Of a stretch of 64,000 nucleotides of DNA, positions 29,189 through 44,919 are shown piece after piece; within the stretch, counting starts at the first letter, position 1, and each line of letters starts with the position of its first letter. Source of the DNA: Roseobacter denitrificans OCh 114 (lineage in GTDB: Bacteria; Pseudomonadota; Alphaproteobacteria; Rhodobacterales; Rhodobacteraceae). A program made the position numbers and the translations under genes. The notes under the pieces were generated by a model. It ran no database searches. It saw only the letters and a program-made list of their open reading frames with translations, and was not told the origin of the DNA. Where the stretch lies: positions 3,681,001-3,745,000 of the forward strand of contig NC_008209.1 in NCBI RefSeq assembly GCF_000014045.1, in the 5' to 3' direction.

Positions 29189-30496
29189 ATGAAAAAACTC
29201 ATGCTCGGCAGTGTTCTGTCTGCGGGTCTGAAAGTCGCAAGCGCCGGGTTGACGTTCCTGATGTTCATGCTGCTTGCGCGTGTCCTGGGGGCCGAGGAAT
29301 ACGGGCTCTTCGCCTCAATGTTCGCGCTTGGCACGATTGGTGCGATCACGGCACTCTTTGGGCAACACACGCTGAGCATCAAAACGCTGTCCGCACTGGG
29401 CGATGACCCGGAACGCGCAGCGGACAGGCGCTTTGCCATCCGGCGCAGTTTTCTGATCACGCTGGCCGGTGCGGTCCTGGTCATCGGCGCGATCCTCGGC
29501 GCAGGATTGGCCGCGCCGCTGCTGGGCTTTGATGTCAATCCTGTCTACCTGATCGGAGCCTGCGCGCTGGTCATCCCCTTTGCGCTGGCCGAACTTGTGT
29601 CACACCAATACCGCGGCTTCGGGAGTATTCTGTGGGCGCTGGCACCGCGTGACGTCTTGTGGCGTGCAATCGTCCTTCTGGCCTGTCTGGGGGCGGCCAG
29701 TATGCCGTTTGTGTTTCGGGATGCCTTTACGGCGATGATCGGCATTTCCCTTGTTTTGATGGCCCTCGTCGTTGTGCAGTTGATCGCCATGCTGCTGCGC
29801 TATCGCGACCAGTTTGCGGCCCGCCCGGGCGCGCAGGTTTCGGTCACCATGCCGTGGGGCGTGTCGGCCTGGATGTGGGTTGCCTCCCTTGGCACGATGG
29901 GCGCAAGCCTCAACCTGTCTGCTGCTGCGCTGTTCTTGCCGCCGGATCAGATCGGGGCCTATTTCGCAGCACAGAAAACATCGCAGCTTTTGCAATTGCC
30001 CATCATCGCGATCAACATTGCGGCGACCCCTGTTTTCGCCCGCCTTCACAGTCAGAACGACATCAGCGGCCTGTGCGATGTGGGCCGAAAACTGGCAATG
30101 CTGATTGCGGGGCCGCTGGCCATCGGGGCCGCCATTCTGATCTTTTTCGCGCCTGATCTGTTGTCCCTCTTTGATCCGAGCTTCGCAGCCGCCGCGCTCG
30201 CGTTGAGTATTCTGGCGGGCAGTTACCTTTTGATCGGACTTGGCGGGCCAACCCGCCCGCTGATGTTGATGAGCAACGGGGAACGCCCGGTGGTGCGCAT
30301 GACCCTGATATCCGAGGCCGTGGGCCTGATGCTCATTCCTGTGCTGGTGCCCGCCTTCGGGATTGTCGGGGCGGCATTGGCCGCATTTGTGGTGCGCGTG
30401 CTTTTCACCCTGCAAACCGTTGCATGGTGCCGCAGCAAGCTTGGCGTGGATACGTCCATTCTGTCGGTATTGACCCGCGGCAAAAAGGCGGTGTGA
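29189..30496 (+). CDS. Wzx-like polysaccharide flippase
   Basis: This 435-residue polytopic protein of the MATE/oligosaccharide-flippase type has 12 or so hydrophobic segments, beginning GLKVASAGLTFLMFMLLARVLGAEEYG, the classic Wzx opening. It would flip undecaprenyl-linked repeat units to the periplasm for the Wzy-like protein encoded 28 bp upstream. It converges with the following sulfotransferase gene, leaving 3 bp between stops. Confidence 0.87.
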   Translation: MKKLMLGSVLSAGLKVASAGLTFLMFMLLARVLGAEEYGLFASMFALGTIGAITALFGQHTLSIKTLSALGDDPERAADRRFAIRRSFLITLAGAVLVIGAILGAGLAAPLLGFDVNPVYLIGACALVIPFALAELVSHQYRGFGSILWALAPRDVLWRAIVLLACLGAASMPFVFRDAFTAMIGISLVLMALVVVQLIAMLLRYRDQFAARPGAQVSVTMPWGVSAWMWVASLGTMGASLNLSAAALFLPPDQIGAYFAAQKTSQLLQLPIIAINIAATPVFARLHSQNDISGLCDVGRKLAMLIAGPLAIGAAILIFFAPDLLSLFDPSFAAAALALSILAGSYLLIGLGGPTRPLMLMSNGERPVVRMTLISEAVGLMLIPVLVPAFGIVGAALAAFVVRVLFTLQTVAWCRSKLGVDTSILSVLTRGKKAV

Positions 30497-30499
30497 GGC

Positions 30500-31480
30500 T
30501 CATACCGCACCCATGACGTAGCCGTAACGGCGCGCTGCGGGGCCGCAAATCATCCGCGCCAGCCGTCGGTCAGTCCCCGAGATTTCATCGCGCCATGAGG
30601 TGTTTGGATCAAGCGTCACCTCCCCGAGGATAAACCGTGCAGGATTGCCGCTGATGGAGTGCTGGGCGTGCACGAGCGCTGCGCGACTGTTTTCGCCCCC
30701 CCTGCCCCCCGGCACCTGCTCAAACAGTGGCGCAGCGTCGGTCGCCAGCGCCCTTTGCCAGTTCTCGGCAAAATCCTCGAAGCGCACCCTGTAATAGCGG
30801 TCCGGCGCAAGATGCGCGAACCGCTCGCATTCCGCATTCACCACAGCCCACTGCAACAGCGAACGTGTGGATGAATATCGCGGAAACAACTGCCCTTCGG
30901 AGACATCCTCGCGCGGCTTCCTTTTCTTCCAAGAGTGCAAGACAGCACGCGGGTCGCGCACCAGATGCAAGAAAACGACGTCAAAGGACCGCTGCTCATA
31001 AAGCAGGTTCAGCGCGTAAAACGGGCTCTTGGATGCATCAATCAAAACCCGGCTCTGGCTTCTCTCGAACGCCTCTGCATATAGCCCCATCAAAAGGTCA
31101 AGATCGCCTGCAGAGCGGTCAAAGTACGTCTTTCGGGATCGTTCGTTGTGCAGGCCCGGAAACTGCCGACGCCGCGCCCCGCTGCCGATTGAACGCGTCA
31201 AGGCGCGCGCCCGCTCAGAATCCATAGCCTTCAACGGTTGCGCACCAAAGGACAGGTCGGGCCAGAAAGCGCATTCTGAAAACGCGGCCTCGCAGCCGCA
31301 TATTCCATCTTCCATGACACCACGGTCCCACAGATAGCGCATTTCGCCCAAAGATGCGGCGTCAGGCATGGAGCCAAGAATATTTGCCATCACGGAGCTG
31401 CCGCTGCGGCCCCACCCCAGAATGTAAACCAGCAAGGGACGCGCATGTTGCCTGAACCCGATTGACACCGCGCTATGCAT
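30500..31480 (-). CDS. Second sulfotransferase
   Basis: This protein of about 326 residues has the phosphosulfate loop YILGWGRSGSSVMANILG near its N-terminus and a VRDPRAVLHSWKKRK segment that matches the 3'-phosphate site. It is unrelated in detail to the sulfotransferase at 27053, suggesting a different acceptor. The frame is open to 31546, with ATGs at 31501 and 31480; the shortest keeps the domain close to the N-terminus, as in relatives, but the start is uncertain. It is encoded opposite to the flanking polysaccharide genes. Confidence 0.83.
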   Translation of the reverse strand: MHSAVSIGFRQHARPLLVYILGWGRSGSSVMANILGSMPDAASLGEMRYLWDRGVMEDGICGCEAAFSECAFWPDLSFGAQPLKAMDSERARALTRSIGSGARRRQFPGLHNERSRKTYFDRSAGDLDLLMGLYAEAFERSQSRVLIDASKSPFYALNLLYEQRSFDVVFLHLVRDPRAVLHSWKKRKPREDVSEGQLFPRYSSTRSLLQWAVVNAECERFAHLAPDRYYRVRFEDFAENWQRALATDAAPLFEQVPGGRGGENSRAALVHAQHSISGNPARFILGEVTLDPNTSWRDEISGTDRRLARMICGPAARRYGYVMGAV

Positions 31481-31801
31481 GTTCAACCCATTTTCCAGCA
31501 TCTGAACCGGCGAGAAGGCGCGCGAGTGGCGGTCGGGCAAATGCAATGGTCATGAAAAGAGCAACCGGAAAAGTTCTGCGTCCAAGCGTGGTGGAGGGTT
31601 TCCATAGGGTCAACCCCCGGCGACAAAATCATCAAAATCTCGCCAAGTCCATGCCACCAAATCATACTAATTTGAAATCAGAGCGGGTTTGAGTATATTT
31701 CCTACGCCGCACGCTCTGGACAAAACGCGTGAAACAGGGTCAGTGTCTGCGCGTCACATGAAAGGGTAATTCGATGTTCTTTAAGGGGGTCGGTGTTTGG
31801 T

Positions 31802-33031
31802 ATGCGTAAGTCATTGACAGAAATTATTGGTCGTACGGCACGCACTTTTGCAGTTGGGCTGCTGTGCACGCTGGCAACCGCTGCTACGGCAGAGCCCTAC
31901 CGTCTGGCACCGGGTGATCGTGTGCTGGTCCAGATCATCGAATTGAACAACCACTCTTACGTCGGCACGGTGGATACGGCAGGTCAAATCCGCCTGCCTT
32001 ATCTGGGCACGCATCTGGCTGCGAACAAAACGCTCGATGAGTTGTCGCAGGATATTTCGCTGGCTGTCGCAGGCCAGCAAATCCGTTCGGTCCAGAACGG
32101 CATATCCTCGGTCATCGTGCTGGATGAACAGGACATTTTCCTTGATATCGACACCTATCGCCCCGTCACCGTGGTCGGCGCTGTCGCCGCACCGGGCCGC
32201 GTCCCCTTTGAGCCGGGGCTCAATGTGCGGGCCGCCATCGGCTCGGCTGGCGGGAACGCGCTGGCGGGGCAAACGGAACGCGTTGATCAACTGGCCAACT
32301 TTCGCACCCGGCAGGCCGAGTTGCGCGAGACCGAAGCATGGCTTGCGGCGGAGCTTTGGCGCATCGACGTTCTGCTGTCCGGCGCGGACAGCGATACACC
32401 GATTGGTGAAGAGTACCGGATCGTCGAAGATCGCCTCGACAGCCGCGATGTCGAGAATTTCAGACGCATGATCGACGGCGCGCGCGCGCAATTGGACCGG
32501 GAACGCGAAGACAATGCAGCGCGGATCGTTCTGACCAAGAAGCGCACGGAGTTTCTTGAAACCGCGCTGGCGCAGTTTCAAACAGCATCAGAGATCGAGG
32601 AAGAAAGACTGCAGGATGTTCTGCAGCTGTCAAACCGGGGGCTGACCACGGTCAACTCTCTCGACAATGCCCGCGAGGGGGCGCTTAACGCGTCGTCGCG
32701 TTTGCTGACGACGCAAGCCGATCTGGCCGCCGCAGAGAGCGAATTGCAGTCGCTGATGATCGAAAAACAGGGGCTGGACGCAGACTTCGTTCAGGCGTTG
32801 ATGGATGAGAAAGCCAAGTTCGAGCGTGACTATGACGAAGCGCGGGCGCGTCTGACCAGCCTCAACCGTGAACTGGCGCTTGGCACCTTCACCGCCGAAC
32901 AGGACGACTCCACGGAACTGCAATACATCCTGCATCGTCAAGACGGCGCAAGCGAGACGAGCACGGAAGTCACGCCAGACACGCTGTTGCGTCCGGGCGA
33001 CGTTGTGGAAGTGATCTTTACCTACAACTGA
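31802..33031 (+). CDS. Periplasmic polysaccharide export protein, ExoF-like
   Basis: This protein of 409 residues has a signal peptide ending near TAATA/EPY and a polysaccharide-export (Poly_export) domain (YRLAPGDRVLVQI). An SLBB-type segment follows (VTVVGAVAAPGRVPFEPG), then a long coiled coil (about residues 170-360) and a C-terminal second export-like motif (LLRPGDVVEVIF). This layout resembles ExoF of rhizobial succinoglycan systems rather than outer-membrane Wza. An in-frame GTG at 31793 lies only 3 bp behind the GGGGGT site, so the ATG at 31802 is preferred. Confidence 0.85.
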   Translation: MRKSLTEIIGRTARTFAVGLLCTLATAATAEPYRLAPGDRVLVQIIELNNHSYVGTVDTAGQIRLPYLGTHLAANKTLDELSQDISLAVAGQQIRSVQNGISSVIVLDEQDIFLDIDTYRPVTVVGAVAAPGRVPFEPGLNVRAAIGSAGGNALAGQTERVDQLANFRTRQAELRETEAWLAAELWRIDVLLSGADSDTPIGEEYRIVEDRLDSRDVENFRRMIDGARAQLDREREDNAARIVLTKKRTEFLETALAQFQTASEIEEERLQDVLQLSNRGLTTVNSLDNAREGALNASSRLLTTQADLAAAESELQSLMIEKQGLDADFVQALMDEKAKFERDYDEARARLTSLNRELALGTFTAEQDDSTELQYILHRQDGASETSTEVTPDTLLRPGDVVEVIFTYN

Positions 33032-33049: not shown

Positions 33050-34366
33050 TCAGGACGGACAATTGAGCGCTGAGTCAAAGGCGCCATTCTCGCGCACCTC
33101 GGCGCCAATTCTGTTCCAGACATCCCCGCCCGATGACAGGATCAGATTACGCTCGACCCGGACGTCCTGCGCGAAATCACCAATACCGCCCAAGCGCACC
33201 GCGTCCCGCTTGACGTCGCACACACAGTTCTCGGCAATGGTGATGTTGCTGAACTTTCCGATCCCGCTGTCATCCTTGTGGCGGTAAGCCATGATGCCAA
33301 AGCCATTGCTGTCAAAGACAAGGTTGTCGACCACGCGAATGCGATCAAGGTTCGGGTTCTGCGGATCCCGGCCGGATTCGCGCGCCAGAACGATACCGTT
33401 CTGAACGCCGAACACGGCGTTGCGCTGCACATCAATATTCGCGACCGTGCGGCTTCCTGCGTCAATGTAGATGCCGTGCCGCTCGATCCCGTGCATGACA
33501 TTATCTGTGATGGACCCGTTGATCGCCCCCGCCTTGGCATCAATCCCATATTGGCGCGTATCGAATATGTAGTTGTTTCGGATCACAAACCCATCCACGC
33601 CGCCGCCAAGGGAAATAGCTTCGTTGACACCCTTGGGGTAATTCGTGTTGGTCATCCTGTTGCCCTGTACGAGGATGTCGAACAGGCGGTATTCATTCAC
33701 CTTGGTGACATAGCGCATGACGATCCCACCGACATAGATCGCCGCGTTCCCGGTTGTATCAATGTCATTGTTCAGGATGCGAATATCCCGCTCGCCTTCA
33801 TCGGTGCCTTCGACAAAGATGCCGTCACGGGCTGCATTCTGAAGACGAAACCCGGAGACAGTGATGTGGCTGGCCCCGCGGATCTCGATCAAGCCGCGCG
33901 TTTCCCTGCCGGTTCCGTCAATGACTGCGCGCTCGGCGCCAACGGTTTGCCCGGCAATGATGATCGGCGCCGAAGGCGTGCCCGACATGCGCATCACAAC
34001 CGGTTGGTACTCGCCCGGCTGGACGATGATTTTGTCCCCGGGACGCGCATTGTTCAATGCCACCTGCAGGCGCTGCAGCGGACGTGCCTCAGACCCGTTC
34101 CCGCCCCGCGCGGCGCGGCTGGAGACAAAGACCAGCCTGTTGGGGTTTTCCTCAACGACGGGCACATCCTGAAGCGACAAAAGATGCTGCGCCATATCGG
34201 GCGTGCTCAACCCTTTGTTCGCAAGGGTTTGCAGCGCGCCGACACACCAACCGCCGGCCTGGCTGGCCGCATGAACCGGCACTGCAAAACCCGCTGCCAA
34301 CAGCAGCAGCACCAAAAACAGACGGTGAGCGCCCGTCAACAGGGCGTTCATTTTGACACGCATCAT
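33050..34366 (-). CDS. Secreted right-handed beta-helix protein
   Basis: This 438-residue protein has a signal peptide (hydrophobic LFLVLLLLAAGFAVPVHA) and a stack of parallel beta-helix repeats (ITVSGFRLQNAARDGIFVEG, FVIRNNYIFDTRQYGIDAK, DNVMHGIERHGIYID and others, about residues 110-420). Folds of this kind include polysaccharide lyases and C5-epimerases. In this locus it may modify or trim the exopolysaccharide in the periplasm. I cannot assign catalytic residues. Confidence 0.78.
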   Translation of the reverse strand: MMRVKMNALLTGAHRLFLVLLLLAAGFAVPVHAASQAGGWCVGALQTLANKGLSTPDMAQHLLSLQDVPVVEENPNRLVFVSSRAARGGNGSEARPLQRLQVALNNARPGDKIIVQPGEYQPVVMRMSGTPSAPIIIAGQTVGAERAVIDGTGRETRGLIEIRGASHITVSGFRLQNAARDGIFVEGTDEGERDIRILNNDIDTTGNAAIYVGGIVMRYVTKVNEYRLFDILVQGNRMTNTNYPKGVNEAISLGGGVDGFVIRNNYIFDTRQYGIDAKAGAINGSITDNVMHGIERHGIYIDAGSRTVANIDVQRNAVFGVQNGIVLARESGRDPQNPNLDRIRVVDNLVFDSNGFGIMAYRHKDDSGIGKFSNITIAENCVCDVKRDAVRLGGIGDFAQDVRVERNLILSSGGDVWNRIGAEVRENGAFDSALNCPS

Positions 34367-34549: not shown

Positions 34550-35749
34550 ATGGATTCCAGCCTCAATACAGCGGAAATGCGCCTGCATGTGGCCTTTGCC
34601 AAAGTGGGCTTTACGCAAGACGAACAGCGGGCGGCCGAATCGCTGGCGCGGCAGGTCACCGACTGGGACGGTTTCGTGGCAACGGCGATGCGCAATTTCA
34701 GCCTGCCCAACATGCGCATGCACCTCAGTCGCATGACCCCGGATTGCGTGCCGCAAAAGGTGCATGATGAGCTGAACACCGCAGCCAATGCGTCGGCCAT
34801 CAGGAACATGTTGCTGGTATCCGCCCAGCATAAATTCAAGGAAAGGTGCCTTGATCCGCTTGGGGCCGAGGCGTTGTTTTTCAAAGGCATCAGCCTGGTC
34901 AGCCAGTACTACCCGGATCTCGGCCTGCGGCCTTGCCGCGACATTGACGTTCTGGTGCGCCCCGAAACGCTGCGCCCCGTTGTGCTGGCGGCAATCGACG
35001 CAGGCTATAAGTTCGTCGTGCCCGGCCAGGCCGAGCATCCGCTGACAGAACCCTCGGAAATTGACGCCGCACTCCATTATCGCAATGACGCGAGCCTTCT
35101 GACGCCGGAAGGCATGGCGATTGACCTGCAGGTCAAGCTGGACAAATACTCCGGCATCTTCTCGCGCGAGGATGTCTTTGCGCAGGCCATACCCGCCGTG
35201 CTCGGTGGCAAAGAGTTCATGACCATGCCGCCTGCGTTTCTGTTCAACTACCTGTGCCACCACCACGCACGGCATGTCTGGTCCCGGCTGCACTGGCTGA
35301 GCGATCTGGATGCGCTGGTCAATGCGCCCCAATTTGATGTGGATGAGGCCGTCGCGCTGGCCCAAAAGCTCAATCAGAGCGGTACTGTCGAGGCCAGCCT
35401 TGAGATGCAGCGCCTCATGTCGCCCGCGCAATCCTGGGATGACGCCCCGGAAATGTGGCGGGGCTTCAAGTTTCTGGAACTCAGTCTGCGTAACCTCTCC
35501 GGTGACCTCGATCTGGAAAAACGCATCGGGTTCAACATGAAGGGCGCGGAATTCATGTTTGACTGGCAAGCAGATCCCAGCCTCATTCGCAAAGCACGGC
35601 TGCGCCACTCCCTGCGCGTGTGGCAGCCGACGATCCGACAATACACCCGCTTTCCCCTGCCGCGCGGCTTGCGATGGCTTTATGTCTTCCCGAGGTTCAT
35701 GCACCTGTTGGAAAGAACGCGGGATCGGGGCGGCAAGAAAGCAGAATAA
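34550..35749 (+). CDS. Nucleotidyltransferase family protein (NTP_transf_5-like)
   Basis: This 399-residue protein carries the motif FFKGISLVSQYYPDLGLRPCRDIDVLVRPE (about residues 106-135) written here in pieces: FFKGISL, then RPCRDIDVLV, the DxD metal site of the PF14907 uncharacterised nucleotidyltransferases. To my knowledge such genes recur beside kinase-type lasso-peptide operons and in polysaccharide loci. Here the lasso genes begin 2 kb away on the other strand. Whether it acts on the peptide or on a sugar is open. It is followed by a glycosyltransferase on the same strand. Confidence 0.72.
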   Translation: MDSSLNTAEMRLHVAFAKVGFTQDEQRAAESLARQVTDWDGFVATAMRNFSLPNMRMHLSRMTPDCVPQKVHDELNTAANASAIRNMLLVSAQHKFKERCLDPLGAEALFFKGISLVSQYYPDLGLRPCRDIDVLVRPETLRPVVLAAIDAGYKFVVPGQAEHPLTEPSEIDAALHYRNDASLLTPEGMAIDLQVKLDKYSGIFSREDVFAQAIPAVLGGKEFMTMPPAFLFNYLCHHHARHVWSRLHWLSDLDALVNAPQFDVDEAVALAQKLNQSGTVEASLEMQRLMSPAQSWDDAPEMWRGFKFLELSLRNLSGDLDLEKRIGFNMKGAEFMFDWQADPSLIRKARLRHSLRVWQPTIRQYTRFPLPRGLRWLYVFPRFMHLLERTRDRGGKKAE

Positions 35750-35778: not shown

Positions 35779-35832
35779 ATGGTTGACCTTCTCCCCTTGG
35801 AACGCTTTGAGAGCCCGGACAAAAACTTTTGA
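35779..35832 (+). CDS. Possible 17-residue small ORF
   Basis: A short frame (ATG at 35779, TGA at 35830) follows an AAGGACA site at suitable distance and fills most of the 97-bp gap between the nucleotidyltransferase and glycosyltransferase genes. The product would be acidic-amphipathic (MVDLLPLERFESPDKNF). No homology can be asserted. It lacks the lasso leader pattern. Confidence 0.25.
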   Translation: MVDLLPLERFESPDKNF

Positions 35833-35846
35833 GGACATCTGATACC

Positions 35847-36974
35847 ATGCAGCAGCCGCTTCGCATTGCGCTTGTTCTGGAAACCTCTGGCGGAGGGTCC
35901 GGGCGCCACGCGCTTGATCTTGCCGAAGGGCTGGCCCTGTCCGGCCATGACGTCACCGTGATCTGGTCACCGGTGCGCGCACAGGAAGATTTTCAGACAC
36001 GGCTGTTGGCCATGCCGACTATTAAAAACCTGCAACTGACGATGCATCGCGCTGTAGGGTTGGCCGATGCAAGCAGCCTGCGTGCGCTCAAATCGCTGCT
36101 GAAGGCGCATGGCCCGTTTGATGTGATCCACGGTCACAGCTCCAAGGCAGGCGCGTTGATCCGCCTGCTGCCGCGCAGTATCCCCGGGGCGCGCATTTAC
36201 ACGCCGCATGCTTTTCGCACGATGGACCCGGATATGGGCGGCCGGGCCCGGCGCGTCTATGGCATGATCGAACGGATTCTCGCGCCGCGTGGGGATCAAA
36301 TCATCACTGTGAGTTCCGCAGAATATCAGCACGCCGTCGGACTGGGGATCAACGCGCGAAAGCTGACGACAGTTGTGAATGGAGCGACGCTGCACGGTGA
36401 GGCGGATCGTGCTGCGGCGCGCGCCTTCATGGAGCTTGGGCCCGATGACGTGGCGGTCGGATTCATCGGACGTCTCGACGCACAAAAAGCGCCACTGCGC
36501 TTTGTCGAGGCGGTTTCATTGGCCGCAAAGCAGGCGCCCCACCTGCGCGGCCTCGTGATCGGCGATGGGTCACTGCGTGCGCACGCAGAAGCGCTCAACA
36601 CCGCAGACGCGGTTCGGTTTCTGGGGTGGCAGGATGGACCGGCGCTGTTTCCCGGCCTCGATGTCTTTTGTATGACCAGCCACTACGAAGCGATGCCCTA
36701 CACCCTGCTTGAGGCGCTGCATGCGGGCGTGCCGATTGTGACCACCTCTGTTGGCGGCGTCGAAGAAACCGTGAATGAAGGCGTGAACGGATTTGTGCTG
36801 CCGACAGACAGCACCGCAGCCGAGATTGCAGAACCGCTGATCAAGCTTGCCACAGACGCCGGGCAACGCGATGCTTTTGGCGCTGAGGCCCAACGCATGG
36901 CCATGACACGCACGGTGCAGGTTATGGTCGAGGACACAATACGCGTGTATCAGACCGCCTGCGCGCAGGGCTGA
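35847..36974 (+). CDS. GT4-family glycosyltransferase
   Basis: This 375-residue GT-B glycosyltransferase has an N-terminal glycine-rich acceptor loop (LETSGGGSGRHALDLAEGL). The C-terminal donor domain contains VGFIGRLDAQKAPLRFVEA, IGDGSLR and the EAMPYTLLEALHAGVPIVTT stretch with the family Glu pair. It likely adds a sugar to the lipid-linked repeat unit in the cytoplasm. The ATG at 35847 is preferred to an in-frame TTG at 35829. Confidence 0.9.
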   Translation: MQQPLRIALVLETSGGGSGRHALDLAEGLALSGHDVTVIWSPVRAQEDFQTRLLAMPTIKNLQLTMHRAVGLADASSLRALKSLLKAHGPFDVIHGHSSKAGALIRLLPRSIPGARIYTPHAFRTMDPDMGGRARRVYGMIERILAPRGDQIITVSSAEYQHAVGLGINARKLTTVVNGATLHGEADRAAARAFMELGPDDVAVGFIGRLDAQKAPLRFVEAVSLAAKQAPHLRGLVIGDGSLRAHAEALNTADAVRFLGWQDGPALFPGLDVFCMTSHYEAMPYTLLEALHAGVPIVTTSVGGVEETVNEGVNGFVLPTDSTAAEIAEPLIKLATDAGQRDAFGAEAQRMAMTRTVQVMVEDTIRVYQTACAQG

Positions 36975-37181: not shown

Positions 37182-37445
37182 CTAGTAGAGCCCGACAATG
37201 CCGGACGCCGTCGTCCCCGTCTGATGCACGACCGTGCAGCGCAGCGGGTAAATCATGCCGGGTTGAACCGATGCGAGGTTAACGGTCTGACCATGTGCCA
37301 TCGTAACCGTCAGGTTGCCTTCGGCTCCGACGTAGACCGCGCGGGTCACATGCAAAAGTGGTGTGGCATCATCCGGCGTAATCTCGAAAGCTCCGAAAGC
37401 AGGTGCATTCAGGCCAGGACTATGGTGTTTGAAAGGATCAGACAT
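37182..37445 (-). CDS. GTA/phage spike-base protein (Rcc01079 family) orphan
   Basis: This 87-residue protein begins MSDPFKHHSPGLNAPAFGAF and ends with TGTTASGIVGLY, with YVGAEGNLTVTMAHGQTV and VQPGMIYPLR between. That is the pattern of small beta-rich spike-base proteins of the Rhodobacter capsulatus gene transfer agent (rcc01079) and related prophages. No other GTA or phage structural gene is nearby. The ATG at 37445 is chosen; a GTG at 37451 is in frame. It lies directly downstream of the lasso kinase gene (305 bp gap), same strand, inside an exopolysaccharide locus. Confidence 0.7.
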   Translation of the reverse strand: MSDPFKHHSPGLNAPAFGAFEITPDDATPLLHVTRAVYVGAEGNLTVTMAHGQTVNLASVQPGMIYPLRCTVVHQTGTTASGIVGLY

Positions 37446-37750
37446 GTTCACTCACTTTGGTTTGAAGGATTGACGGCTTCTGCGTGGACTTATGCCCTCA
37501 AATATCCTTGCAAAGTGAGAACCCACCGCACGCCCGGTTAGGATATCCGTACCGCGCACGGTCATAGCTTTTCGGGTTTAACCTGAGGCATGCCAGATTG
37601 CTTCTCGCATGCGACCAAAGGCAAAGGCAGCGCACATGTGATGCAGGATGGACGCGAAACGCATGTAAGCGTGGCCAACAATTGCGCGCACGTGTCTTCA
37701 AGCAGCCACAAAGGTCAACCGTTTGGAGTCTGCGACTGGCGGTGCGCGCA
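37446..37750. other. Intergenic region upstream of the spike-base gene
   Basis: About 300 bp without a supported gene, between the lasso kinase stop and the spike-base start on the minus strand. It should hold the promoter of the spike-base gene. No clear terminator for the lasso operon was found here. Confidence 0.4.
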
Positions 37751-38683
37751 TCAGGTGGTCTGATCGACGAATTGCTCAATCGTTTCGGACAGATCATCAA
37801 GGCGGGTCAGGTCCGCAGGCACCAGTAATTCAAAGACAGGCGCTTGTGAGACAACGGCACCACAGCGTTTGAGGTGGCTTATCAGATGGGCCTGCCCCAA
37901 CCGCGTTTCGCCGTAGCGCGCCATAAAGGTATAGCGCAACACTGTCTCAAGCGCCTTGTGCGGGGGCAGGCGAACGGCCTTGGGCGCGCTGACCTCATCG
38001 CTCCTGCGCAGCATGAACAGGCTGCCCAAGGGCACCGCATCCTCCGCAATCGGAGTTGCCATCCGCTTTTGTACCTTGGGCAGCGAGGGATGAATCAACC
38101 GATCGCTTGCCTCATCGCCAAGGCCGAGCGCCTCGATGGAATCCGGCCAGAGCTTCATGCTCGAAAAACCCGGCTGCACCGTCAGCGTTTCATCTTCAGA
38201 CAGGGTCTGGCCCACGGCGACCAGATCATCGGTAATCGGCACATGCCCGCGCGCCACCAATGCAGCACTGGTCGTTGACTTGCCGGCCCCCTTGTCCCCC
38301 AGAAAAAGCGCCGCATGACCCTGCACCGATACCGCACTAGCGTGCAGACACAGAACGCCCCGCCGTTCAAGCACCAGCGACATCACCAAACCCAGAAGCG
38401 CCTGCGACACGAGATAATCCGATACGCCTTCCTTCGGCTCGATCCTGACCGTTGACGGATCATCGATGCAAAATGTTCCGACCGCGTTCCAGTGCATATA
38501 TTGCCGGTCAGGCTGGATATCGAAATAGGGGTCGAATTCGGGGGCGCGGGCCGGGGAAAGGCCTGTTGTGCGTTCCACACGCACCACGTCGCCCGCCTCT
38601 GCTGGATCAACCAGTTCCAGCACATCACAGATGAAATCAGACGCGAGCGTGAGCCCGAACACGGCGTAGTAATGCGGTTCCAT
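37751..38683 (-). CDS. HprK-like lasso peptide kinase
   Basis: This 310-residue protein has the C-terminal-domain architecture of HPr kinase: LHASAVSVQGHAALF, the P-loop GDKGAGKSTT (about residues 129-138) and ITDDLVAV with the catalytic Asp pair. Homologues in lasso clusters of Paenibacillus, Thermobacillus and Sphingobium phosphorylate the precursor's C-terminal Ser, and this cluster's precursor does end in Ser. The ATG at 38683 shares one base with the cyclase stop (TGATG); an in-frame TTG at 38686 is less likely. It is the last gene of the lasso operon. Confidence 0.85.
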   Translation of the reverse strand: MEPHYYAVFGLTLASDFICDVLELVDPAEAGDVVRVERTTGLSPARAPEFDPYFDIQPDRQYMHWNAVGTFCIDDPSTVRIEPKEGVSDYLVSQALLGLVMSLVLERRGVLCLHASAVSVQGHAALFLGDKGAGKSTTSAALVARGHVPITDDLVAVGQTLSEDETLTVQPGFSSMKLWPDSIEALGLGDEASDRLIHPSLPKVQKRMATPIAEDAVPLGSLFMLRRSDEVSAPKAVRLPPHKALETVLRYTFMARYGETRLGQAHLISHLKRCGAVVSQAPVFELLVPADLTRLDDLSETIEQFVDQTT

Positions 38684-40572
38684 CAAATCAGCATCCCCTT
38701 GGCCTGTGCTTCACGCCATTCAGTAAGCCCTTTAAACCAATAACTTAAAACGGCCAGTCGCCACAACGCTCTAATCGCAGCCACGTCTGTGACTTCGCGC
38801 ACAATCACCTGTTGGCGCACTCGCTCTGCGGCATCGGCATTGACGAAATCACCCAGCGGCGCGAAAAATCCAATGTCTTTATCACTGTAAAACTCATGGA
38901 TGACGGCAGAAATCTCATCCCCGAATTCCGCTTTGTCCGCGCGTGTTCTGATGCTCTCTGGCAGGATCCCGCGCATCGCCTCGCGCAGCACCCATCTGCT
39001 GCGGCCATCACGCAGTTTCATTTCTGCAGGAAATGACAGGCACAGGGATACGACACGGCGGTCGAAAAAAGGATATCTTGGCAGAACACCGGCGGCACTG
39101 GCCGAACGGTGGAGCACTTCAAACGCCTGCGCCATCAGTGGCGCTTTCAAGGCCCGCAGGTGCGTCAGCCTTTCGGCCCTATTGAAATCCGCCTGCGTCT
39201 TTAACAACGGGTCGGGCGCGTATCTTTCTTCCGCGCCGATCTTTCGCTGCAGGTCGGGCGCGATCAACGCCATGGGCTTTTCCGACCAGCCAGCGATGGA
39301 AGACCGCTTTGTTTGGTAGCGTGCCAGCTTCAGACACAGGCGGCGCAGCGGATTTCTGGGGCGCATTCCGCTGTAATGGGCGATATGGCTGGCGAAAAGG
39401 GTGAGAAACGGCAGGCTATGGACCTGCGCCGCGCCACGCGCCTCACGATAAAGCTGCCAGAATTTCCGGCGTGTCGCCAGTTCCACGAGGCGCCCGTATC
39501 CATGCGATATGACCTCATCGCCGCCGTGCCCGTCAATCACCGCCGTCAACCCCAACGCGCGCGCATCGCTGTAGATACGCCGCGATTTCGCAAGGCCTGG
39601 TGCGAGAAACAAATCCATCTGTTCGTCGATCAGCGGGCCAAGGTCATCGAGCGGGGGCGCACCCGAAATCGCAATTTTATGCGGTACACTGCCGAAGAGT
39701 TCATTGGCCGCGTCGATGTAAGGCGTTTCGTCATATGCCTTATCCGCACCATATACGAAAGAGACGGTTTTCAAAGGCGCAACCGATGCCTTTGCCGCCA
39801 ACCCGGCAAGGGCCGAGGAATCCAACCCACCGCTCAACATTGCGCCGACACGTCCTTCGGGGCGCAGACATGAACCGGTGGCCGTCTGCAGCGTGTCCCG
39901 CAAGCGCGCGGGGCAATCGCTTTTCACCGTAGTCTCAGGGATTTCCAGTTGCCAATACCGGCGCGGCGTCACCCCTTCACCTGCCGCTTCAAGGCGATGC
40001 GCTGGTGGCAGGCGCAGCACTTGTTCAAAGGCTGTGCGGTCGAAATCGACTTCCTCGCCGTGGATGTAATCGGCAAGTCGCGTCGCATCGGCATTCAGCG
40101 CGATACCGGACACATGCAGACACGCGCGCAAATCGGACGCGCATGTCACCGCGCCATCAGACACCGTGTAATAGAACGGGAAGATGCCGAAATGATCCCG
40201 GTACGCCTCAAAACGACCAGTCTCCTTGTGAACGAACACAAGTGAGAATGCACCACATACGTCATGCACAAAATCCGGCCCCTTGGCCACGCGCAAAGCG
40301 AGCAGCAATTCGAGGTCCGACTGTTCAGCGGCCTGCTGGGGCGATGCATCACCGTGGTGGGCCACACTCTCACGGTCATGCAAAAACGCAAGGCCAAAGG
40401 CGACCCAACCGGCAGCGTTACAAACCCCTGCATCACCGGTTGTCGCACCATCCACGCCAGCCACTGGCTGCGTCAGATGCCAGCCCTGATCCTGCAAACG
40501 CGCAATGCGCGCAGGCGCGGCGTGTGAAGCGGTCCCGGCAAGGGAGATCCGCGAGACAAAACAATGCGTCAT
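38683..40572 (-). CDS. Lasso macrolactam synthetase (asparagine-synthetase-like C protein)
   Basis: This 629-residue protein resembles AsnB. The N-terminal amidotransferase-like domain starts MTHCFVS, so the catalytic Cys2 of true glutaminases is absent. The ATP-pyrophosphatase domain has the signature LSGGLDSS at about residues 246-253. In lasso clusters this enzyme adenylates the ring Asp/Glu side chain and joins it to the core N-terminus, threading the tail. It overlaps the B2 gene by 4 bp and the kinase gene by 1 bp. The precursor, RRE and B2 next door argue strongly against plain asparagine synthesis. Confidence 0.9.
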   Translation of the reverse strand: MTHCFVSRISLAGTASHAAPARIARLQDQGWHLTQPVAGVDGATTGDAGVCNAAGWVAFGLAFLHDRESVAHHGDASPQQAAEQSDLELLLALRVAKGPDFVHDVCGAFSLVFVHKETGRFEAYRDHFGIFPFYYTVSDGAVTCASDLRACLHVSGIALNADATRLADYIHGEEVDFDRTAFEQVLRLPPAHRLEAAGEGVTPRRYWQLEIPETTVKSDCPARLRDTLQTATGSCLRPEGRVGAMLSGGLDSSALAGLAAKASVAPLKTVSFVYGADKAYDETPYIDAANELFGSVPHKIAISGAPPLDDLGPLIDEQMDLFLAPGLAKSRRIYSDARALGLTAVIDGHGGDEVISHGYGRLVELATRRKFWQLYREARGAAQVHSLPFLTLFASHIAHYSGMRPRNPLRRLCLKLARYQTKRSSIAGWSEKPMALIAPDLQRKIGAEERYAPDPLLKTQADFNRAERLTHLRALKAPLMAQAFEVLHRSASAAGVLPRYPFFDRRVVSLCLSFPAEMKLRDGRSRWVLREAMRGILPESIRTRADKAEFGDEISAVIHEFYSDKDIGFFAPLGDFVNADAAERVRQQVIVREVTDVAAIRALWRLAVLSYWFKGLTEWREAQAKGMLI

Positions 40573-41000
40573 AAAGAGACGGACGATCTGACAGGCGTTG
40601 GCAGATCCAGGATCTTGTTGAAATCGAGCAAGGTGCCTTCATTACCTTCAAGAACAACCTGCCCGTTCCAAGTCAGCCATGCGTGCGCTTTGAGCGTCGT
40701 TTCATCCTCTTTCTTCAGACCCATTGTGATGGTTGACGGGATGCCCTTCCACGACAGGATCGCCTGACAGGAAATCGTCTGCGTCAGGCAGCTGGCATCG
40801 GGGATAAATCGCGCGATCCGGGCAACCGCATGCGTCACGCGCGCGACCGTGGCGCGCCGTTCCAGTTGCGGGTCATCCGGGCATGGACGTACCAGCGCCG
40901 CCCGGATGCGTTGATAACGCGTGACCCAAAGGCCGACACGTACCACCAGTACAACCAGCAGACTTAAGGTGTAAATTCCTGCCCAACGAATAGCGCGCAT
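40569..41000 (-). CDS. Lasso leader peptidase B2 (transglutaminase-like)
   Basis: This 143-residue protein has a hydrophobic N-terminal segment (residues 8-26) and the B2 catalytic core: Cys71 in PDASCLTQTI and His106 in LKAHAWLTWNG. It is the PF13471-type protease that removes the lasso leader. The length matches stand-alone B2 proteins of split-B clusters. It begins 3 bp behind B1 and overlaps the cyclase by 4 bp. Confidence 0.92.
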   Translation of the reverse strand: MRAIRWAGIYTLSLLVVLVVRVGLWVTRYQRIRAALVRPCPDDPQLERRATVARVTHAVARIARFIPDASCLTQTISCQAILSWKGIPSTITMGLKKEDETTLKAHAWLTWNGQVVLEGNEGTLLDFNKILDLPTPVRSSVSL

Positions 41001-41003
41001 GTA

Positions 41004-41291
41004 TCACTTGGCCTCATCCGCCACGACCTTGACCACATTCGCCTCAACCATCTGACCCACAAGGGTTTCGATGTCTGCTCTGCACTGATCATCCGTCACA
41101 TCGAATTTTTCTGTCACAATCTGAACCATCTCATTCAAAGACTTAGGTTCGGACAAGCCCAGCCACAAGGCCGACGCGGTCGCATTCATCGTGAAATAGG
41201 TGTTGGTCTGGAGATGCAGCAACGCCCTGTCCCCGCCAATATCGCAATCCACCACATCAGACTGCGCGACATAACAATTTTCAGATACCAT
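41004..41291 (-). CDS. Lasso RiPP recognition element protein B1 (PqqD-like)
   Basis: This 95-residue PqqD-family protein has the expected DVVDCDIGGDRALLHLQTN beta-strands and FTMNATASALWLGL helix. B1 proteins bind the Tyr/Pro/Leu region of the leader and deliver it to B2 and C. It is the first of four tightly packed genes (B1-B2-C-K), 194 bp behind the precursor gene and its terminator hairpin. Confidence 0.92.
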   Translation of the reverse strand: MVSENCYVAQSDVVDCDIGGDRALLHLQTNTYFTMNATASALWLGLSEPKSLNEMVQIVTEKFDVTDDQCRADIETLVGQMVEANVVKVVADEAK

Positions 41292-41404
41292 AAGGCCGAT
41301 CCACTTTAATTATATTTGGTGTACGACACCAGAAACAGAACACGCTTAAAGATCGCTTGAAAAAGGGATGGCGTAAACCAAAAAACAGCGTTCCTGAAAC
41401 ATCC

Positions 41405-41441
41405 AAAAAAATGCCGGAGACCGGTTCACCCGGACTCCGGC
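41405..41441 (-). terminator. Intrinsic terminator/attenuator directly behind the lasso precursor gene
   Basis: On the minus strand a near-perfect stem forms from GCCGGAG-T-CCGG, loop GTGAA, and CCGG-T-CTCCGGC, with one T-T mismatch. It is followed by A and seven T residues (41411-41405). It lies 45 bp behind the precursor stop and about 114 bp before B1. Partial read-through would give much more precursor than enzyme mRNA, a common arrangement for RiPP operons. Confidence 0.88.
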
Positions 41442-41485
41442 GGAGTTATATTAGACTGACGCCACAAGGACGCCCGACCTGTCGC

Positions 41486-41626
41486 TTAGGACAGTGTCAA
41501 GTCTGTGAATGGCGTGCCAGCTGGGAATGCCGCGTCAAGGCTGGAACCTGTGGAACCACCTTTTGTTACGGCCTCAACTTTGCCATGCGAGCGCAGTACA
41601 GGCGCTTCGTATACAGCTTTAGTCAT
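41486..41626 (-). CDS. Lasso peptide precursor (A), 46 residues
   Basis: A strong AAGGAGA site (41631-41637) precedes the ATG at 41626. The 22-residue leader fits the lasso pattern Y-x2-P-x-L-x3-G-x5-T-x exactly: Tyr6, Pro9, Leu11, Gly15, Thr21, with Thr at position -2. The 24-residue core starts GGSTGSSLDAAF, so Gly1 can be joined to Asp9 in a nine-membered ring. The 15-residue tail contains Phe12 and Phe18 as possible plugs and ends in Ser24. It lies between its exporter gene and B1. The gene is too short for ordinary ORF lists and is partly covered by an antisense frame. Confidence 0.93.
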   Translation of the reverse strand: MTKAVYEAPVLRSHGKVEAVTKGGSTGSSLDAAFPAGTPFTDLTLS

Positions 41627-41653
41627 GACTTCTCCTTAAATATTAACCAGAAA

Positions 41654-41673
41654 TAGTTAACGCGTATTAACTA
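41654..41673. promoter_or_regulatory. Palindromic operator candidate before the lasso precursor
   Basis: TAGTTAA and TTAACTA form a perfect 7-bp inverted repeat separated by CGCGTA. It overlaps the -10 element of the precursor promoter by four bases, so a bound protein would block transcription. The half-site TTAACTA also occurs at 44424-44430 upstream of the ExoY-like gene. Confidence 0.55.
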
Positions 41674-41699
41674 TATCGGTCTTACAGAGCAATTCTCAA
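41670..41699 (-). promoter_or_regulatory. Sigma-70-type promoter of the lasso operon
   Basis: On the minus strand TTGAGA (41699-41694) and TATAGT (41675-41670) are separated by 18 bp. Transcription would begin about 41660, some 35 bp before the precursor ATG. It lies in the 143-bp gap behind the exporter gene, so the precursor has its own promoter even if the exporter transcript reads through. Confidence 0.6.
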
Positions 41700-41769
41700 G
41701 GCTTATTCTCAGGATTTGTCGGTTTTCCGCCTAAAAACTGCGCCATGCCTAAAGTTTAACACGTAGCGT

Positions 41770-43593
41770 CTAGCTTCGGTAGCCACGCCCCTGCCGTTCA
41801 AACATTTCGGCATAGCGCCCATTTTGACCAATAAGTTGCGCGTGGGTGCCTTCTTCGACAATTTTACCGTTGTCTAGCACGTAAGTATAGTCTGCCTGTC
41901 GGATCGTCGACAGCCTGTGGCTGATCACAAGGGCACCGCGCCCTTCCAGCTTGTCACGGAAGCCGTCAAACAGTTCCGCCTCCGCATTCGGGTCGATGGC
42001 ACTGGTTGGTTCATCCAGAATGATGAATTTCGATTCGGGGAACATCGCTCTGGAGAGCGCTATTTTCTGCCACTGCCCCCCCGAAAGCTCAACACCACCA
42101 TCGAACATGCGCGACAGAACCGTGTCATAGCCATGCGGCAGTTCTTCGAGAACCTCATGCGCGCCGGTCAGTCGCGCAACATCATGCAGCCGCGCGTCGT
42201 TCCCGTCCCGGCCCAGATCCGCCAGCCGAATGTTATCACGCCCGGTGTAGGCGAATTGAACGAAGTCCTGAAAAATCACGCTGAACTGTTTGCGGTAGGC
42301 GACCGGGTCGAATGCCTGAACATTCACGCCATCATAGGTCACACTGCCTTCCTGCGGGTCATAAAGGCGGCACAAAAGCTTGATCAGCGTGGTTTTCCCC
42401 GACCCGTTGCCCCCGACAAGTGCCGTGAACTGCCCCGGCCTGATGCGCAGCGACACATCCTCCAAAGCCGGCTGCTCCGAGGTCGGATAAGAGAAAGTCA
42501 CATGTTCGAGCGCAACACCTTCTTTCGCCTGCGCCGGGAGCGGTTGCGCCACCTCGCCCTTCGCCATGACGGGTTTCAGTTCAAGAAATACAAAGAGCTG
42601 GTTCAGGAACAATTGATCGTCATAAAGACGCGACAGACTCATCACGAAATCCCGGCCAGCGGTTTCCGCCCGCACCAGGAGCAGCACCACCATGATAAGG
42701 TCCGAAAGCTGTGCCTGCCCTGTGGAAAACCGGTACAGAATGAACGCAGCAGACGCAAAAACCACCAGCGTCCCCACGACCGACACGAGGCTTTCCGCAA
42801 TGGATTTCCGGCGCTCAATCGCGAGGTAATCCTTGCGCACGACCTTGCGGATATTCATGTATTGCGCGCGCAGATACGCGCCAATATCCCATAGCCTGAT
42901 TTCCTTGGCGAAGGGCTGCGATGTCATCAGCCAATCCGCATAGGAAGCGTGGCGTTCCTTTTGCACAAGCCGGCGTTGGAGCAAAAACCGCTGCCGGGTA
43001 AACCGCACCTGCACAACCAGCATCAAACCAACCGCGATCAGACTGATGGGCAACAACCGCCATTCAACGATGAAGAGGACAACCGCAATACCTGCGAGCA
43101 TCATGCCGCCCCGAAACACGTTCAGCGCATTGGCGATGACCTGTGCGGGGCGCTGTGCACCTGCCTGTCGCGCGCGCTCAAGACTGTCGTAGTAAAGCGC
43201 GCTGTCGTAAAAGCTCAGGTCAGCCGCGACCGCGCGTTCCTGAATGGCTCTGTTCACGTAGTCGCTGACGACGAACCCTTGGGCTGCGCGATAATAATTC
43301 GCCACCGAATGCATGATACGGCCAGCCAAAAACAACCCCAGTACGATCGAGATTGCCGCCAGAACGCGGCCCATATCGACACCATCGCCTGAATTTGCAG
43401 ATTGGGTGATATCGTCAACGGCGAGCTTGATGGCCAGCAGCGCGCCAAGTGCCAGCATGATTTCCAGCAATGCCGCCACGAAAACAAAGATGCCCAGTCG
43501 CTTGCTGCTGTACTTCAGCAGCGCGATGACTTTGCGCCACAGGGAAAAGTAGCGTTCGATCTTACCGGAGATGGAAGGAGATTGGGCCGACAT
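41770..43593 (-). CDS. ABC exporter of the lasso cluster (D protein)
   Basis: This 607-residue half-transporter has an N-terminal six-helix membrane domain (about residues 25-320) and a C-terminal ATPase with Walker A VGGNGSGKTTL, signature LSGGQWQKIALSR and Walker B FIILDEPTSAID. It lies directly upstream of the precursor gene, the usual place for a lasso exporter, which also gives self-immunity. A lipid-flippase role in the polysaccharide locus is the alternative. Confidence 0.85.
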   Translation of the reverse strand: MSAQSPSISGKIERYFSLWRKVIALLKYSSKRLGIFVFVAALLEIMLALGALLAIKLAVDDITQSANSGDGVDMGRVLAAISIVLGLFLAGRIMHSVANYYRAAQGFVVSDYVNRAIQERAVAADLSFYDSALYYDSLERARQAGAQRPAQVIANALNVFRGGMMLAGIAVVLFIVEWRLLPISLIAVGLMLVVQVRFTRQRFLLQRRLVQKERHASYADWLMTSQPFAKEIRLWDIGAYLRAQYMNIRKVVRKDYLAIERRKSIAESLVSVVGTLVVFASAAFILYRFSTGQAQLSDLIMVVLLLVRAETAGRDFVMSLSRLYDDQLFLNQLFVFLELKPVMAKGEVAQPLPAQAKEGVALEHVTFSYPTSEQPALEDVSLRIRPGQFTALVGGNGSGKTTLIKLLCRLYDPQEGSVTYDGVNVQAFDPVAYRKQFSVIFQDFVQFAYTGRDNIRLADLGRDGNDARLHDVARLTGAHEVLEELPHGYDTVLSRMFDGGVELSGGQWQKIALSRAMFPESKFIILDEPTSAIDPNAEAELFDGFRDKLEGRGALVISHRLSTIRQADYTYVLDNGKIVEEGTHAQLIGQNGRYAEMFERQGRGYRS

Positions 43594-43711: not shown

Positions 43712-44389
43712 CTACCGACCCGTCGCGCCCACAACAGACAGGCCGGTCTTTGCGATCAGTCGCAGGTCTGTCAGCAGCGATATGTCCTTGGCGTATTCCA
43801 CGTCGAAGTTCACACGCTCATCATAGGTCACGTCATTGCGGCCAGACACCTGCCAAAGCCCCGTGATGCCCGGTGTCATCGACAAATAGACAGGGCGGTG
43901 CGTTCCGTATTTATGCAATTCAACGCGCACGATGGGGCGTGGACCGACGAAGCTCATCTCGCCGCGGATCACGTTCCAGATTTGCGGCAATTCATCGAGG
44001 CTGGTTTTGCGCAGGAAACGCCCCAACCGGGTGATGCGGGGGTCATCATCCAGTTTGTGATCTCTCGCCCATTCCTCGGCGGCGGCGGGGTTGTCCCTCA
44101 GATGCTCGCGCAGTTTTGTTTCTGCATCCACCACCATGGTGCGCAGCTTCCAGCACCGGAATACCTTGCCATTGCGCCCCACCCGTCTGTGTCCGAAGAA
44201 ACCGCTGCCACCGTCCCGCTTTGTCAAAACCCACAAAACGGCAATCAACGGCACCAGCACCGGCATCAGAGCCAAAGCCAGCACCAGATCAAAAACACGC
44301 TTTCCGGCTTTTTTGTAGGGGGCGAAGCCGTCACGGGCTTCTTCAAAGTGCTCAAGCTTTTTGACTTCAGCAGAGTGGAACATCGCCAT
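43712..44389 (-). CDS. ExoY-like initiating sugar-1-phosphate transferase
   Basis: This 225-residue membrane enzyme transfers hexose-1-phosphate to undecaprenyl phosphate, the first step of repeat-unit assembly. It has one N-terminal helix ([20 protein letters not shown]) and the family blocks [49 protein letters not shown] and [13 protein letters not shown]. An AGGGAGA site is 8 bp before the ATG at 44389; the in-frame ATG at 44410 lies upstream of that site and is rejected. Confidence 0.9.
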
Positions 44390-44919
44390 AATCACCGTCT
44401 CCCTAAACATGCATTTAAAGAACTTAACTAATCCTTAACCTTTTTTCGGCCAATTTTAAGTCAAACGAAAGCGAAAAGTTGCCAAAACTCAAATATTAGC
44501 AGTTTCCCGCATAGGTAGTGGTTAATTTTACGTCAATGGGCCCGATTGGACACGTTTGGGAACCCAGCGGGCGCGTAGGTCTGGTGCGCGCAGCGGTATG
44601 CGGCGGCGGCGGACCTCGGTGATTCGGTCAATCCAAGGCTGCAAGAGGTCGCGACATCATGTTCTGTTCAGTTCCTTCACCGCACCGTTTTGAGCAACGT
44701 CCTGTGTGGTGTCACAAGACAGATGCAAGCCCACAATCCAATCGAAGCTGAGGTTGACCAAACGGATAGGTACCCCTGAAAAGATACGATACGACCACTG
44801 GGTTTGTTTACCCGTGATAGTAGTTTTTGCAATCACAGGAAAATTATGGCTAGTCTGGTGCAGGGCCCATTCGTCTGAAAGACACCTTGTGCCGGGATAA
44901 AAGAGAAAGCGCCTCAGCT
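44390..44919. other. Gene-poor region between exoY-like and XRE-cupin genes
   Basis: About 500 bp with an AT-rich part (44410-44540), likely the divergent promoter zone of the ExoY-like gene, including a TTAACTA half-site at 44424. The middle part (44545-44700) is GC-rich with broken short frames and could be a gene or transposase remnant, but nothing is recognisable. Confidence 0.4.

Follow-up and report, generated by a model that had tools for sequence, protein, structure and literature searches.

The described systems closest to the locus analysed here are lasso clusters of the paeninodin type, in which the genes for a precursor (A), a leader-binding protein (B1), a leader peptidase (B2), a macrolactam cyclase (C) and an exporter (D) are joined by one for an HprK-like kinase (K; PadeK, ThcoK, and SyanK of Sphingobium yanoikuyae), the precursor ends in Ser, and the kinase displays His-Lys-Asp-Asp residues (PMC9266682). 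All of these features recur in a gene cluster of Roseobacter denitrificans OCh 114, located on the minus strand at 37751-43593 of a 64,000-nucleotide stretch (NC_008209.1, 3,681,001 to 3,745,000; this whole stretch is called the window, and its positions are used throughout). Judging from its sequence and those of its relatives, we consider it probable that the cluster produces a phosphorylated, and probably also glycosylated, lasso peptide that serves the extracellular polysaccharide layer. In Bacilli, paeninodin clusters often occupy capsular polysaccharide loci, and so do the genes for linear polyphosphorylated peptides (LPP); the same 2026 paper (PMC13381572) treats the roles of paeninodin and related phosphorylated peptides as unknown, with biofilm as a speculation, restricts paeninodins to Bacillota and gives them a Trp leader motif. 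Our locus differs in having Tyr in the leader, a host in the Rhodobacterales and its nearest named relatives in Roseobacter and other Rhodobacteraceae, and it falls outside the paeninodins in the strict sense. A lasso-phosphorylating kinase is known from one alphaproteobacterium, namely SyanK (PMC9266682). The capsule link is thus already known for Bacilli, and the parts of our locus are ordinary. Out of the ordinary is the wider pattern of a nearly invariant core that keeps company with a kinase and, but for one case, a nucleotidyltransferase in polysaccharide loci; the open-licence literature yielded no publication on this family of cores, on how widely it occurs or on the orphan precursors.

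The pseudomycoidin system (PsmK and PsmN) shares with our locus a kinase and an annotated nucleotidyltransferase, and with them the expectation of a phosphate and a hexose on the C-terminal Ser; it comes from another phylum, and the nucleotidyltransferase found here (NT), with a putative PsmN-like role, stands apart from the biosynthetic operon and beside a GT4 glycosyltransferase. The bsf cluster of Bradymonas sediminis (BsfK, BsfN; PMC10368454), likewise Gram-negative, contains A, B1, B2, C, D, K and N, but BsfA ends in Asp, has Ile at -2 and is phosphorylated on Ser3, whereas a terminal Ser and Thr at -2 are found here. The LPP systems of Bacillota have in common with ours an RRE, an HprK-like kinase, an NTP transferase, an MsbA-like exporter and capsule loci, but employ a SipW-like peptidase and no cyclase (PMC13381572), whereas B2 and C are present here (no search was aimed at SipW-like genes). 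Leader similarity, over window residues 3-23, also extends to the NCBIfam families rhodolasso (NF033534) and lasso_cyano (NF033528); membership in either was ruled out, as neither the 20 members of the precursor alignment A1 nor P0020 reach either cut-off, and most of their matches stop at the leader or close to it (for rhodolasso, 16.3 bits for the window precursor and 22.8 for the best of ten scored individually, against a cut-off of 30).

In order of transcription the cluster reads D, A and then B1-B2-C-K, these last four lying a few bases apart or overlapping by as little:

41770-43593, minus strand: D, ABC exporter, permease plus ATPase (Pfam ABC_tran, 108 bits)
41486-41626, minus strand: A, lasso precursor of 46 amino acids, a 22-residue leader and a 24-residue core with Gly1, Asp9 and C-terminal Ser24
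41004-41291, minus strand: B1, PqqD-like leader-binding protein (RRE) (Pfam PqqD, 59 bits)
40569-41000, minus strand: B2, leader peptidase with Cys71/His106 (Transglut_core3, 90.8 bits; NCBIfam lasso_biosyn_B2, 71.7 bits, cut-off 33)
38683-40572, minus strand: C, asparagine-synthetase-like macrolactam cyclase (Pfam Asn_synthase, 162 bits)
37751-38686, minus strand: K, HprK-like kinase (Pfam Hpr_kinase_C, 32.9 bits, slightly short of the cut-off of 33.3)

Given that a PqqD/RRE protein, a Cys-His transglutaminase-like peptidase and an AsnB-like cyclase are encoded together, the locus is almost certainly a lasso peptide pathway, and the HprK-like kinase with its conserved His, Lys, Asp and Asp is the mark of a phosphorylated one. 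Residues H115, K136, S137, D153 and D154 of K are invariant among 13 aligned kinases, as are Cys71 and His106 among 16 aligned B2 proteins (at most two rows gapped per column in either case); the H/K/D/D residues are called catalytic in PMC9266682 and PMC10368454. The N-terminus of C reads MTHC, Cys2 being absent, SGGLDSS stands at 247, and in NCBIfam it matches a lasso cyclase model best, scoring 298.5 bits, which is below the cut-off of 525. K probably starts at the ATG that begins with base 38683 and overlaps the C stop codon. Solved-structure relatives of K are HPr kinases only, and none was found for NT (best E 0.68). The window's genome holds a single B2 above cut-off and a single K. The original prediction had placed A, B1, B2, C, D and K at these positions, and coordinates and profile matches bear it out, including the exact placement of Cys71/His106 and the AsnB-like cyclase without Cys2; its designation as a kinase-type lasso cluster agrees with the comparative data. 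Its word "complete" takes no account of NT or of the polysaccharide genes on either side.

The precursor, encoded in 46 codons downstream of AAGGAGA, consists of the leader MTKAVYEAPVLRSHGKVEAVTK and the core GGSTGSSLDAAFPAGTPFTDLTLS. Its leader passes the NCBIfam model lasso_leader_L3 (25.4 bits, cut-off 19), and the protein has the YxxPxL...T(-2) leader, Gly1-type residue and Asp/Glu at ring position 7-9 that define a lasso precursor. Against the precursors of genomes G425, G650 and G653 from the same genus, synonymous differences (pS) amount to 0.54-0.69 and nonsynonymous ones (pN) to 0.08-0.11; the nearest precursor (G646) shows about seven differences (four synonymous, three not), too few to judge. 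Relatives were also sought precursor-blind through B2, which gave nine matches, the window's own included, in 394 genomes of the family, and two loci in the genome_contigs scan; L023 of genome G392, where B2, B1 and D are present and A, C and K were not found, was set aside from the counts. The precursor adjoins B1 in all ten lasso loci located through B2 alone. A chance open reading frame (ORF) is thus ruled out by the leader model, by pN below pS and by the frame in B2-anchored relatives. What had been predicted of the gene, from the AAGGAGA site and the Y-x2-P-x-L...T leader to the 24-residue core with Gly1 and Asp9, was sound, and the test set in advance, conservation of the frame in relatives, was passed; the masses of 2251.06 and 2331.03 Da were correct on recomputation (2251.064 Da for the cyclised core, 2331.031 Da with phosphate). 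That the gene was "uncalled" finds no support, because the protein database holds the exact protein (P0001, three member sequences) and a close relative named "lasso RiPP family leader peptide-containing protein". The core had not been recognised from the characterised set; length and type were rightly given, and it belongs to a large conserved family. On plasmid pDSM14862_d of Sulfitobacter indolifex DSM 14862, which carries the lasso system, no gene is listed at the precursor, which proves nothing because the PLSDB gene table is incomplete.

Many relatives share a strongly conserved core. Searching 5.8 billion proteins with a profile gave 525 relatives of A, the best 120 of which were read, with the core start assigned by the Thr(-2) rule. 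They yielded 119 cores of exactly 24 residues, 117 of them distinct, in which Gly1, Asp9, Thr22 and Ser24 are constant (119/119 each), Thr16 (118), Gly5 (116), Phe12 (115), Pro17 (114), Pro13 (109), Gly15 (108) and Asp20 (105) nearly so, and few positions vary freely; Ser occupies position 3 in 81 of the 119, and Ala, Thr, Val, Lys or Arg also occur there. These 120 being top scorers, the sample is biased towards likeness, and the B2-anchored set therefore serves as a check: a single consensus fits eight of its ten cores, the exceptions being L011 and L020, which still keep Asp9 and the terminal Ser. For comparison of whole clusters we used 18 loci (window, L010, L011, L020-L022, L024-L030, L038, L039, L053, L055, L056), ten obtained via B2 and the others via A, the Sulfitobacter and Paracoccus plasmids via A or K; L010, L037 and L040 belong to one genome (G653) and were counted once. 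Core residue 1 is Gly in 16 of the 18, Asp9 and a terminal Ser are found in all 18, the terminal Ser also in 20/20 aligned precursors (A1), and K is encoded in 15/15 loci not truncated by a contig end. Across nine genera, without L011 and L020, mean pairwise identity is 64% for the core, as against 49% for the leader, 48% for B2, 44% for K, 41% for B1 and 40% each for C and NT (enzymes over their profile-matched parts); with L011 and L020 included, the values are 54% for the core, 48% for the leader, 43% for B2 and 42% for K. Relatives named among the matches listed come from Roseobacter, Cereibacter, Paracoccus, Thioclava, Devosia and Mesorhizobium, together with an Oxalobacteraceae metagenome-assembled genome and the cyanobacterium Rivularia. 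Per genome the precursor is rare (7/390 in the order, 9/355 in the family), and a class-wide A1 search matched 2/385 genomes, its own and one weak match with an internal stop.

The second line of evidence is the neighbourhood, in which the lasso genes sit between Wzc-, Wzy-, Wzx- and Wza-like genes with two sulfotransferase genes and a beta-helix gene on one side and a WbaP-like gene on the other:

24678-26747, minus strand: Wzc-like chain-length determinant/autokinase (Pfam AAA_31 passes its cut-off; GNVR and Wzz fall slightly short of theirs)
27053-27892, plus strand: sulfotransferase of the polysaccharide locus
27874-29160, plus strand: Wzy-like polymerase (Wzy_C)
29189-30496, plus strand: Wzx-like flippase (MatE just above cut-off, Polysacc_synt below)
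30500-31546, minus strand: second sulfotransferase
31793-33031, plus strand: Wza-like polysaccharide export protein (Pfam Poly_export, SLBB)
33050-34366, minus strand: right-handed beta-helix protein, possibly polysaccharide-active
43712-44410, minus strand: WbaP-like initiating sugar transferase, upstream of D (Pfam Bac_transf, 204 bits)

A Wzc, Wza or initiating sugar transferase gene lies within about 20 kb of A in 15/15 loci with enough flank (those of L011, L027 and L053 are too short), and Wzc itself in 14 of them, none being seen in G091. The distance from A to Wzc, measured in 11 loci, is 14.7-19.7 kb within the genus, as against 6.1-8.3 kb in six other genera. The Wzc-like gene is the sole match at 1e-10 in the window's genome, and the same search finds one or two places per genome, so that the chance of such a neighbour is about 1-2% per locus; it may reach a few percent, because the search undercounts (the Wzc of L029 was missed by it and found by the profile). 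The sugar transferase has some match in 17/19 genomes of the genus, and one of at least 73% only in the five that carry A. The linkage extends to plasmids: a 41.8-kb plasmid of Paracoccus sp. MC1862 packs into 19 kb NT, GT2, GH16, an O-antigen ligase, a sugar transferase, A, B1, B2, C, K and D as well as a GNVR protein and three glycosyltransferases. Nine plasmid records with a K relative were found, seven of them annotated (H12 and H13, whose stretches lack annotation, were left unscored), and clear polysaccharide genes lie near the K relative in five of the seven (Sulfitobacter, Paracoccus, Azospirillum, Halopiger, Butyrivibrio).

A nucleotidyltransferase accompanies the cluster almost throughout and is followed directly by a glycosyltransferase gene:

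34550-35749, plus strand: NT, PF14907 nucleotidyltransferase (124.9 bits; KG and DxD motifs)
35829-36974, plus strand: GT4 glycosyltransferase (Pfam Glycos_transf_1, 100 bits; the listed ORF starts at TTG and the true start may be further in)

A PF14907-type NT is encoded in 17 of the 18 clusters, window included, and within the genus A and NT co-occur in the same 5/19 genomes, GT4 adjoining NT in all five loci. Gene order differs: in Roseobacter-like loci D lies upstream of A and NT beyond K, whereas in most other genera NT is divergent from A and D follows K. At the 13 loci outside the genus NT is the divergent neighbour of A in nine and its same-strand neighbour in L020, and it lies farther from A in L055 and L056. 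Exclusivity of NT to lasso clusters was ruled out by genomes with NT and no B2 match.

Our model, built on these comparisons, is a lasso peptide with a nine-residue ring and no Cys that is made for the cell's exopolysaccharide layer. B1 would hold the leader via YxxPxL, as is established for its protein family; to go by catalytic residues and the invariant Ser, K would phosphorylate Ser24 in the manner of PadeK; and to go by protein families and invariant residues, B2 would cleave the precursor between Lys22 and Gly23 and C would join Gly1 to Asp9 around the tail. NT, perhaps together with the adjacent GT4, would then cap the phosphate with a sugar, as PsmN does in pseudomycoidin, whereupon D would export a product acting in or on the exopolysaccharide as a matrix part, an assembly factor or a matrix-borne signal. 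We regard phosphorylation of Ser24 as very probable and NT-dependent capping, by analogy, as reasonably likely. The polysaccharide layer is proposed as the site of function because of the linkage to polysaccharide genes and the conservation of the core, and on balance we lean towards it. ThcoK could substitute for PadeK, and the precursors of ThcoK and SyanK share little beyond the terminal Ser (PMC9266682); therefore the kinase alone is probably not the reason for the conserved core, which a fixed extracellular partner would account for.

Several points weigh against this model. Within the genus, the core shows no greater conservation than the leader or B2 (window versus L028: core 83%, leader 95%, B2 80%, NT 77%, K 66%, C 60%), and 3 of the 18 cluster cores depart from the pattern: L011 (Ala1), L020 (26 residues) and L055 (Thr1). 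The cases of linkage share ancestry and are not independent, and they were counted without a random-locus control. The L030 cluster has no NT, and PF14907 is not lasso-exclusive, since 6 of 8 NT-matched genomes of the family have no B2 match (the single-sequence search behind this count matched 8/394 and missed divergent NTs that the profile finds). Among the plasmids, that of Priestia is modest (GalU and a short "polysaccharide biosynthesis protein") and that of Thalassobaculum equivocal (only GalE and a sulfotransferase). Finally, K falls just below its Pfam cut-off and C below the lasso-cyclase cut-offs.

The alternative that survives best, although we think it unlikely, is that the cell secretes the peptide as a signal or interaction factor and that the polysaccharide link merely reflects hot spots exchanging gene blocks together. 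In keeping with this, A, NT and the matching sugar transferase come and go as a unit in the genus, and Paracoccus and Sulfitobacter carry the block on plasmids; yet the linkage persists despite the differing gene order of Roseobacter-like loci and most other genera, and a similar one is seen in an archaeon and in Bacillota (PMC13381572). Less likely still, K modifies a residue other than Ser24 and NT serves the polysaccharide pathway instead of the peptide: BsfK does phosphorylate Ser3 (PMC10368454), core position 3 is mostly Ser, and the window's NT stands beyond K next to polysaccharide genes and has PF14907 kin without B2, but position 3 also carries other residues while Ser24 is constant, and 10 of the 13 loci from other genera have NT next to A. 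Many characterised lasso peptides are antimicrobial, and D could confer self-protection, but a conventional antimicrobial to which the polysaccharide genes are irrelevant is the least probable reading, because the core is conserved, with few positions free and more likeness across nine genera than the enzymes show, where an arms race would lead one to expect otherwise. The comparisons thus suggest that the peptide serves the sugar coat rather than killing competitors.

Were the peptide part of the matrix, it would be a new kind of matrix component, and the conserved core, the polysaccharide linkage and the second precursor described below make the role of paeninodins and related phosphorylated peptides testable in culturable strains such as S. 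indolifex DSM 14862. A bolder version, which we rate as doubtful, is that the peptide is covalently joined to carbohydrate via its C-terminal phosphoserine and so comes to cap, prime or cross-link the exopolysaccharide; K would add the phosphate, and NT and the adjacent glycosyltransferase would build a glycan on the phosphoserine. If this is true, a nearly fixed lasso head of 24 residues would make the product a peptidyl-polysaccharide; its relatives would range from Rhodobacterales to cyanobacteria, and Bacilli and haloarchaea would offer parallels.

Two signals flank A:

41670-41699, minus strand: sigma-70-like promoter, some 43 bases ahead of A (TTGAGA-18-TATAGT, 10/12)
41405-41441, minus strand: G+C-rich hairpin with T-run in the gap separating A from B1 (fold z-score -3.2, equalled by 1 of 200 shuffles)

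Promoter-like sites number 5 in the region versus 3.3 (sd 1.8) in shuffles, which is weak evidence. A hairpin follows shortly after A in 15/15 cluster loci folded (minimum-energy folds judged by eye, no shuffles), and that of the window is not listed by a consensus terminator scan. It is perhaps a terminator or attenuator favouring the A transcript; A would be transcribed from its own promoter, with the hairpin probably keeping B1-B2-C-K lower.

The window's genome also encodes a second precursor at C1:905020-905157 (L031:9521-9658, minus strand), 46 codons from a TTG (51 from an upstream ATG), which is 65-67% identical to A and has a predicted cyclised mass of 2180.99 Da. No B1, B2, C, K or D match occurs in the 20 kb read around it, and the enzymes of the cluster may process it in trans. 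It resembles a metagenomic protein (76% identity) more closely than it does A, and such an orphan in addition to A was found in 0 of the other 18 genomes of the genus. Another orphan, in G051 (L054 8876-9169, plus strand) about 65 kb from that genome's cluster, has a near-identical lasso leader and a TFS end; its core is rich in Gly, Trp and His, without Asp/Glu at ring positions 7-9. Resembling LPP, it may be a linear phosphopeptide, and because it keeps leader and tail and differs in the middle, it suggests that these two suffice for entry into the lasso pathway. A second precursor-like ORF on the S. indolifex plasmid (L055 12679-12807, minus strand) has no terminal Ser and is possibly decayed. 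On a Nostoc plasmid (L057 14995-15141, plus strand) a lasso leader precedes a 24-residue family core with Gly1, Asp9 and terminal Ser; no lasso enzymes are among the genes listed within 15 kb, in a gene table that is incomplete.

Further observations concern polysaccharide surroundings elsewhere. The plasmid of the haloarchaeon Halopiger xanaduensis (L060 8734-16474) encodes PqqD, B2, AsnB, a kinase-like stretch, NT and an ABC exporter, adjoining a flippase and a GT4. In L023 (13721-16297, minus strand), B1, B2 and the ABC exporter lie about 5 kb from a Wzc-like gene, perhaps representing another kind of peptide pathway among polysaccharide genes. In the window itself, a gene of the "spike base protein, RCAP_Rcc01079 family" (37182-37451, minus strand; 112 bits, cut-off 28) stands just after K, a position kept in 5/5 loci of the genus; an ORF of about 790 amino acids with beta-helix features follows it in L010, L028 and L038 and not in the window or L039. 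Relatives of the spike base protein occur in 16 phage records, including Rhodobacter and Flavobacterium phages, and its place beside capsule genes is suggestive because the head spike fibre of the Rhodobacter capsulatus gene transfer agent binds capsule (PMC10218006).

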